In this document: positions 36,692 through 38,644 of the stretch, one piece after another
How positions within the stretch are numbered: the stretch's first letter is position 1
How the letters are laid out: the number at the start of each line of letters is the position of its first letter
Origin: Methanolobus sediminis
GTDB lineage: Archaea > Halobacteriota > Methanosarcinia > Methanosarcinales > Methanosarcinaceae
DNA length: 64,000 nt
Direction of reading: 5' to 3'
NCBI RefSeq assembly: GCF_031312595.1
Contig: NZ_CP133592.1
Location: 2,108,001-2,172,000, forward strand
Made by a program: the position numbers and the translations under genes
The notes under the pieces: model-generated
Databases searched by the model: none
Told to the model about the DNA's origin: nothing
What the model saw: the letters and a program-made list of their open reading frames with translations, nothing else

Positions 36692-37150
36692 TTATCTGGT
36701 GATAAGCATCTCAGCAGTTTCTGGCTTGTATTTCCAGTCAGCTGGAAGAACCTTTGCGGACTGGTAGTATTTTACCAATCTTCTGATCTTGGATTCGGTG
36801 TTCTGGAGAGCACGCTTGTTGTGTACATCCTTGTGGTTGTAGTTCATGTGCTTTCTCATTCCGATTGCCTTTACGATAAGGTTGTAGAGATCTTCAGGTA
36901 CAGCGAATTTTTCACCGTTTTCTTTCAGGATCTTTGTGATCTTCTTGCCGGTTGCAAGCTTTACATCAGGTACACCATACTTGTCCCTGAGGATCATTCC
37001 GATCTCGCTTGTGCTTACTCCCTGCTTCCAGAGATCAGCAACTACGGTTGTTACTTCTTCGCTGGTCATTGTTGACCATGAAGGTACTTCTGTACGAAGT
37101 GGTCTTGTAGGTCCAGAGTTTCCTTTCCTACGGGTGTGCATTTTTGCCAT
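36692..37150 (-). CDS. rpsO: Ribosomal protein uS15
   Basis: 152 residues, the long archaeal/eukaryotic form. It opens [19 protein letters not shown], then [23 protein letters not shown], and has the rRNA-binding core with [28 protein letters not shown]. It binds 16S rRNA helix 22 region. The start ATG follows a strong CAGGAGGAAG. The preceding 260-nt gap to hisS is rich in inverted repeats and may be its leader. Downstream is the GlmU-like paralogue after 185 nt. Confidence 0.96.
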
Positions 37151-37159
37151 AATCTTCCT

Positions 37160-37400
37160 CCTGATAATTGTAATTCAAGTTTTAATTCAAGTTTTGATTA
37201 ATTTAGCCTATATTGAATTTAGATAGGATTCAATATAGAATTGATGTTTTGATCCTTATCGAACTCTTGAACTTGGGAGTCGGTTCGATAAAATGTTAAT
37301 GTGATTGGCGAAGTGCTACCTATGAAGTCAATCATCTCATATATATGTTATGATTGATGGAGCACTGCTCCAAATATGAGATTTTCGTCACCTGATTATG
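37160..37400 (-). ncRNA. Structured leader candidate between hisS and rpsO
   Basis: In the direction of rpsO this stretch holds several inverted repeats. ATCTCATAT/ATATGAGAT (37374-37382 with 37334-37342) encloses a TGGAGCA/TGCTCCA stem (37358-37372). CAATCAT/ATGATTG (37350-37356 with 37329-37335) competes for the same bases. Then comes TTATCGAAC/GTTCGATAA (about 37257-37291) and TATTGAAT/ATTCAATA (37210-37235), then two copies of AAAACTTGAATT just before the ribosome site. It could be an autoregulatory leader or a hisS terminator plus promoter. No known family recognised. Confidence 0.4.
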
Positions 37401-37411
37401 ATATTAATTTA

Positions 37412-38644
37412 TCAGCAAGTGAATTTATCAATAACTTCCTCGATACTCAGAAGTTCCTGTTCGCCGCTTGTCATATCCTTTAACATGACTTTTCCAGCTT
37501 CAACTTCCTTTTCACCTATTATGATAACGTGTTTAGCACCAATGTTGTTGGCATGTGATAATTGAGCTTTGAAGTTCCTTTTCATCAGGTCATTATATAC
37601 AGGCATATGTTTCCTGAGTTCATTAGCCGCCTTTATTGCATCAAGACGGGTAGTGTCTTTGGCAATAATCACGACTGGAACATCATCAGGTGCTTCTAGT
37701 TCACATACTTCCATAATCCTGTCAAATCCAAGACCAAACCCAGTTGATGGGACATCTCCTCCACCAAAGAGCTGAATTAGTTGATATGAACCTCCACCAC
37801 ATACCTGATTCTGAGCACCGAGTCCTTCTGCGTAAATCTCAAAAACAGTGCCAGTATAATAATCAAGTCCTCTTGCAATTCCAAAATTAATTGTGTACTC
37901 TACACCATAAGCATCCAGCATGGTAAGAAGTTCCTGGAAATCTTCAATTTCAGGTATATCGCCTATAATTTCTCTTGCTTTTGTAATGGCATCATTACCT
38001 GTAAGGGATATCAGCTCAATAAGTTTCATTCGAAGATCAGCAGGAGCATTTATTTCCTCAAGGAAATCATCAAGACCTTCATAGTCCTTCTTGTCAACAA
38101 GTCTCATTATTTTGCTTTGATGCTCTGTTTCCAGTACACTGAGAAGATTCCTAATTACGCCAAGATTGTTTACGTTCAAATCACCTTTGATACCAACTGC
38201 TCTGAGCATTTCTGTTGCCAGTGCAATAACCTCGGCATCAGCATCCATTTTCCTGCTACCTATGAGTTCCACGCCAAACTGCCAGAACTCTCTGAAGCGT
38301 CCTTTCTGCGGTCTCTCGTACCTGAAACAGTTCTCAAAGTAGAATAATTTCAAAGGCTGTTGATATGCCTGCATCTCATTGACATACATCCTCATGACAG
38401 GTGCAGTCAATTCAGGACGCAGGGTCATATCTCTATCACCTTTATCTGTGAAATTGTAGAGTTCCCCGATTATTCCCTCACCTGATTTGAGAGTAAATAG
38501 TTCGAGATTCTCAAATGTAGGGGTGATTATTTCATTGAAGCCCCAGTTCTTTACTACCTGGCGCAGTATGCCTTCTACATATCTTCTTTTCTTTGTATCC
38601 TCAGGGAGGAAATCACGTGTTCCTCGTGGTTTAGTGATCTTCAT
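37412..38644 (-). CDS. hisS: Histidyl-tRNA synthetase
   Basis: 410 residues. Class II synthetase charging tRNA-His. Visible are [14 protein letters not shown] at the start, motif 2 ([24 protein letters not shown]), the histidine motif [14 protein letters not shown] (about 257-270) and [13 protein letters not shown], then [12 protein letters not shown] (motif 3) and a C-terminal anticodon-binding domain. It is the first gene of the long minus-strand block, divergent from a lipoprotein gene. Confidence 0.96.

Follow-up and report, generated by a model that had tools for sequence, protein, structure and literature searches.

Leaders of S15 genes offer the standard example of how many unrelated RNA folds can recognise one and the same protein. 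In E. coli, S15 regulates its own gene, rpsO, by "entrapment," in which the leader forms a pseudoknot by pairing between the loop of a hairpin and the region where translation starts. For archaea, our search of the literature found two predicted S15 leaders and no experimentally tested one. These are the Rfam families S15-Methanomicrobia (RF03137) and S15-Halobacteria (RF03143), which belong to clan CL00121, and mimicry of an rRNA junction was seen in both (Eckert & Weinberg 2020, PMC7247131). The initial annotation of the locus described here was aware of no archaeal counterpart to the S15 leaders, which these two families provide. In addition, archaeal L7Ae is probably autoregulated through a k-turn in its 5′ UTR, with the Shine-Dalgarno sequence (SD) inside the k-turn stem (PMC6298567).

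We analyzed a 64,000-nucleotide stretch of the genome of Methanolobus sediminis (the window), whose closest named relatives are strains of M. vulcani. In the window, hisS ends at 37412 on the minus strand, the strand that also carries rpsO, and the two genes are separated by a gap of 261 nt. The minus strand of this gap has a predicted folding energy of −50.2 kcal/mol, compared with −37.4 ± 4.0 kcal/mol for shuffled sequences (z −3.2, 0/200 shuffles). An rpsO orthologue was found in 94 of 100 relatives, but its upstream neighbor differs between them, and in most of them hisS is absent from this place. The parts that persist are the TATA box, CACTTCGCC near the predicted start, the hairpin P1 and the SD (Table 1). 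Because hisS-rpsO synteny is not conserved, the element belongs to rpsO; a hisS 3′ UTR or terminator was ruled out, since the element is kept while the upstream genes change. On the plus strand, a weak Rfam match to the C/D RNA family RF00538 (snoCD11; 37337-37410), which scored 22.1 bits where the gathering score is 60, was judged to be due to chance; the stretch sits between hisS and rpsO, and this adjacency is missing in most relatives. The initial annotation had drawn attention to this gap as a possible switch-like leader, and all of the sequences it quoted are present in the window; it pointed to the right place for a partly wrong reason.

Table 1. Positions of the rpsO gene, its leader and its promoter in the window.
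Feature	Position	Strand	Basis or remark
rpsO (archaeal uS15, 152 aa), gene downstream of the leader	36692-37150	-	Pfam Ribosomal_S13_N, E=1.4e-24; Ribosomal_S15, E=1.1e-15
Shine-Dalgarno sequence AUCAGGAGGAA (GGAGG at 37157-37161)	37155-37165	-	GGAGG kept in 16/16 aligned Methanolobus leaders
Duplicated AAAACTTGAATT (copies 37172-37183 and 37184-37195); AAAACUUGAAUU complementary to loop AAGUUCAAG	37172-37195	-	Not conserved as a repeat
Second hairpin P2, clade-specific, 11 bp (37208-37218/37228-37238), 9-nt loop	37208-37238	-	
Hairpin P1, conserved leader core, UUAUCGAAC...GUUCGAUAA	37256-37291	-	Covariation; 30 best covariance-model matches upstream of rpsO
P1 9-bp stem TTATCGAAC/GTTCGATAA	37256-37264/37283-37291		
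P1 loop CUCCCAAGUUC (CUCCC-AA-GUUC)	37269-37279	-	CUCC complementary to SD GGAG
Conserved start-proximal motif CACTTCGCC	37307-37315	-	TTCGC at TATA-fixed distance in relatives
Predicted transcription start	~37316-37321	-	Derived from TATA position
rpsO TATA box AACATATATAT, with upstream BRE-like flank CAATCAT (37350-37356)	37339-37349	-	Little or no variation across 16 Methanolobus leaders whose upstream genes are unrelated
Outer 9-bp stem ATCTCATAT/ATATGAGAT	37334-37342/37374-37382		Uses or flanks the TATA box
Inner stem TGGAGCA/TGCTCCA	37358-37364/37366-37372		
Alternative pairing CAATCAT/ATGATTG	Spans 37329-37356		

The core of the leader is the hairpin P1. The CUCC and GUUC of its loop are nearly invariant across 30 leaders, while the sequence of the stem varies (GAAC/GUUC, GGUU/AACC, GAUU/AAUC, GAUC/GAUC, GUUU/AAAC, AAGUUA/UAACUU and GGCUAU/AUAGCC). 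Among 30 Methanosarcinaceae hairpins, 10 of 11 pairs showed two-sided changes, and the covariation score was 0.435, compared with 0.241 ± 0.019 after shuffling and at most 0.185 with slid partners. These 30 hairpins had been chosen by eye, and the test was redone on Methanolobus leaders aligned over their whole length; here P1 was 90% paired, with a score of 0.420 versus 0.245 ± 0.027 for shuffled and at most 0.123 for slid versions. When P1 was traced along the tree of rpsO genes, parsimony required two-sided changes on at least 18 branches, and the covariation is therefore not one inherited change counted repeatedly. The counts were taken from alignments A1, A3 and A4; differences in loop length made the MAFFT alignment A2 and the RNAalifold consensus poor. 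Covariation in relatives, the check that the initial annotation had itself put forward, thus gives strong support to a structured leader that is conserved before rpsO.

A covariance model of P1 was searched against 112 genomes of the family. It matched at least 44 of the 112 at E≤1, which is a lower bound because the strict filters missed the window genome itself. Thirty-three matches, in 33 different genomes, had E <0.001, and the remainder had E≥0.049. The best 30 matches all (30/30) lay directly upstream of rpsO and on the same strand. These data strongly support a conserved structured rpsO leader in Methanosarcinaceae, which shows two general features of r-protein leaders: a covarying structure 5′ of an r-protein gene and, among the best matches, a consistent tie to that gene. 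The initial annotation had described two stems here, of 9 and 8 bp. The 9-bp stem was correct and is part of the conserved element; the other is 11 bp long, not 8. This second hairpin, P2, formed 11 of 11 pairs, with compensatory changes, in eight M. vulcani-clade leaders (L001-L005, L007-L009) and was absent from the remaining leaders. Long hairpins resembling P2 were observed in L082 and L014.

We compared the leader with the two known archaeal families. Using cmscan, RF03137 and RF03143 were matched before rpsO in Methanomicrobiales- and Halobacteria-like genomes; neither family had a match in the window at E<=10, and none of 150 genomes of the class exceeded the RF03137 cutoff (gathering score 42.2 bits). 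Of two short strings that we chose ourselves from RF03137 leaders to look for rRNA-like junction sequences, [UC]CCGAC and UUGGGA, neither was found in any of 13 Methanosarcinaceae leaders, a weak test given that, in three RF03137 leaders, [UC]CCGAC was present in 3/3 and UUGGGA in 1/3. Membership of the rpsO leader in either family was ruled out, as the window gave no covariance-model match to them at E<=10. The leader is similar to RF03137 and RF03143 in being a structured RNA directly upstream of archaeal rpsO, with covariation and with uS15 as its probable ligand. However, those families form a multistem junction, whereas the core here is a single hairpin with a CUCC...GUUC loop. It is probably a new type of S15 leader within a known category. 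Our best reading is that it represents a third archaeal S15-leader candidate, not in Rfam, which would act in translational control and may do so through pairing between loop and SD.

P1 lies within the predicted 5′ UTR. In Methanolobus psychrophilus, the TATA box is 19–22 nt from the transcription start and the 5′ UTRs of r-protein genes average 165 nt (PMC5378194). Applied to the TATA box of rpsO, this spacing predicts the start given in Table 1; the TATA box is 48–58 nt upstream of P1, which fits the published spacing, and a predicted 5′ UTR of ∼167 nt, derived from the TATA position and that spacing, fits well. The initial annotation had interpreted the mutually exclusive stems at 37329-37382 as a conditional RNA switch. 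The pairings are indeed present in the window genome, and transcripts reading through from hisS would contain them, but they overlap the conserved TATA box and lie upstream of the predicted start, which would make them promoter DNA, and they showed no covariation. In 16 Methanolobus leaders, 55% of the pairs of the outer stem could form, compared with 33–47% in controls slid by 1–3 columns, and the inner TGGAGCA stem was private to the window genome; outside the promoter sequence, the stems are not conserved and relatives lack them. We therefore regard an RNA switch at this position as extremely improbable.

A perfect 8-bp inverted repeat, TCAATCAT-N14-ATGATTGA, surrounds the TATA box (37328-37357, minus strand) in some members of the M. 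vulcani clade (p ∼0.01–0.02 per sequence), and Methanohalophilus has GGCACA-N14-TGTGCC with the same spacing (p ∼0.06–0.08); other genera are without it. Such a repeat might be an operator that controls rpsO at the level of DNA, leaving the leader without a regulatory role. However, the repeat is weak or absent elsewhere, and an operator leaves the covarying hairpin downstream unexplained, which makes this reading quite improbable. As a general operator the repeat was rejected, because it is not conserved.

The distance between the TATA box and TTCGCC is fixed at 30–34 nt in most relatives. Of 52 Methanosarcinaceae leaders from genera other than Methanosarcina, 46 had TTCGC at the TATA-fixed distance (0.7 on average after shuffling); it also occurred in leaders of the Methanocella and Methanoperedens types, group labels that are inferred beyond the named records. 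In the window genome, TATA-N(18-30)-CTTCGC occurred 7 times, versus 5 for a reversed-pattern control. The distance from the motif to the start codon ranges from ∼35 to 240 nt; this variation assigns the motif to the 5′ end or to the region of initiation. CTTCGC at the TATA-fixed distance of rpsO was observed in several archaeal families (L061, L065-L067, L069, L070, L108, L110, L111, L113, L117, L180, L190, L191, L193, L209, L213). The motif is also the reverse complement of the 16S stretch GGCGAAG, and we considered CUUCGCC as an antisense to it; support for this ends at the 7-nt match. Pairing of CUUCGCC with the start codon region, AUGGCAAAG, comes close to fitting but was discarded as a general rule: an A/C mismatch stays and, by eye, Methanoperedens-type leaders have no GCC.

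The SD of the window genome is complementary to the 3′ end of its 16S rRNA, CACCUCCU, and complementarity between the loop CUCC and the SD extends to almost every genus. Of 37 leaders tested, about half had CUCC as their best SD complement; for most of the remainder, the better complement was the P1 3′ arm or the adjoining GUUCC of the loop. In the window, the loop was predicted to form a 14-bp discontinuous duplex with the AAAACUUGAAUU stretch and the SD (−9.9 kcal/mol). The duplication reported in the initial annotation is present here, but the exact duplication was not seen in the other aligned Methanolobus leaders; the duplicated AAAACUUGAAUU may extend the loop-SD pairing. Cognate pairs of loop and SD region gave −7.92, compared with −7.52 ± 0.15 when permuted (13/2000), in a permutation that takes no account of ancestry.

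Other genera provide further observations on this pairing. In three species of Methanomethylovorans, the loop/SD-region duplexes have predicted energies of −10.8 to −13.6 kcal/mol, and between two of these leaders (L049 and L052) one duplex position was changed, by eye, on both sides. In Methanosarcina the loop has a further partner in 8 nt that lie upstream of the SD, with 98.5% of cells paired; one pair has a two-sided change, in three sequences, and the score was reached by 13 of 500 shuffles. A leader whose SD is not GGAGG (L095) is also without a CUCC loop. In L025, AUCC replaces CUCC, and in both leaders with a changed CUCC (L024, L025) the best loop duplex joins GUUCC to GGAAU across the end of the SD. 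In many species, the loop-SD pairing is just 4–5 bp, and because the SD hardly varies, covariation is unable to prove it in Methanolobus. Combined across genera, these sequence observations favor a loop-SD pseudoknot. As the mechanism, we hold loop-SD pairing to be plausible at somewhat less than even chances; in the window genome it appears as complementarity, which is not proof.

The SD could also be reached by an exchange of arms, in which the 3′ arm of P1 (UUCGAUAA here, CCUGGUAA elsewhere) would have two alternative partners, the 5′ arm of P1 and UUAUCAGG at the SD, such that factors stabilizing P1 would open the SD. Pairing with UUAUCAGG, just before the SD AGG, is possible at 7–8 of 8 positions in all 16 of 16 Methanolobus leaders, and in L006 and L010 its predicted energy is −10 to −12 kcal/mol. 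However, the window genome has only five contiguous pairs, followed by a mismatch and two G-U pairs; by eye, the match is missing from the arm in Methanomethylovorans and Methanohalophilus; and the support from SD variation comes from two leaders only. Moreover, uS15 bound to P1 would then predict activation and not feedback repression. We consider an arm exchange improbable.

Turning back to the main reading, we favor translational control over attenuation, since the sequence of the window has no U-run after P1. It is somewhat probable that the rpsO 5′ UTR is a translational uS15 autoregulatory leader, a putative function, and slightly more so that uS15 is its ligand. We propose that, when there is little free uS15, P1 would exist as a hairpin alone and the SD would be open. 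In excess, uS15 would bind the leader at the hairpin and/or at the 5′ CUUCGCC end, and the bound protein would stabilize pairing of the loop CUCC with the SD GGAG, creating a long-range pseudoknot. This pseudoknot would block loading of the 30S subunit, as the pseudoknot does in E. coli rpsO. The two systems would share pairing between a hairpin loop and the start region, which is inferred here from complementarity. They differ in that they have no sequence relation, that the loop would target the SD over ∼100 nt in the window genome, and that the ribosome is archaeal. The likeness to L7Ae (PMC6298567) is that an archaeal r-protein is thought to repress its own translation by occluding the SD, but ligand and gene are different and no k-turn was noted in P1. 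In its entirety, the model in which Methanosarcinaceae control uS15 synthesis by an unlisted leader, through a long-range loop-SD pseudoknot that uS15 stabilizes, is a tentative candidate.

The conserved leader might instead answer a signal other than uS15. It could be an RNA thermometer responding to cold or growth rate, act on RNA stability, or bind a different RNA-binding protein. In Methanolobus psychrophilus, cold adaptation has been tied to long 5′ UTRs in which stems are predicted to mask the SD (PMC5378194). On the other hand, among the 30 best matches in 112 genomes the element sits at rpsO alone, and other archaeal orders have predicted S15 leaders at rpsO. We think such a signal rather unlikely.

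Control by uS15 through such a pseudoknot, if true, would make this leader a third structural solution among archaeal S15 leaders and an archaeal counterpart of the E. coli S15 mechanism, unrelated in sequence. The candidate is structurally different from the two predicted archaeal S15 leaders and extends across Methanosarcinaceae, including the genetically tractable Methanosarcina, in which r-protein autoregulation via an SD pseudoknot becomes directly testable for archaea. It also points to rpsO leaders having been replaced or rebuilt on several occasions within a single archaeal phylum.

Leaders vary among the relatives. A second Methanolobus group (L016, L017, L019, L020, L022, L023, L027-L029) has a different stem with the loop UCUCCUGUU. 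The P1 element is absent from the leaders of one small genus of the family (L103-L105). These three leaders, L103, L104 and L105, have a different conserved rpsO leader, UUGAGUUAUUUUCGACAC...UAAC.CGCGAAGA, without a CUCC loop and with a GAGGU-like SD. In Methanosarcina the leader is larger, and a hairpin loop carries UCUCCC. Within Methanosarcina (L054, L059, L090, L091, L098, L099, L101, L102, L195-L203), the leaders also have a nearly invariant closing helix, UUUACCGA/UCGGUAAA. The 3′ strand of this helix is shared with an invariant GUUAUA/UAUAAC hairpin, whose loop also contains it; helix and hairpin are therefore alternative or kissing pairings.
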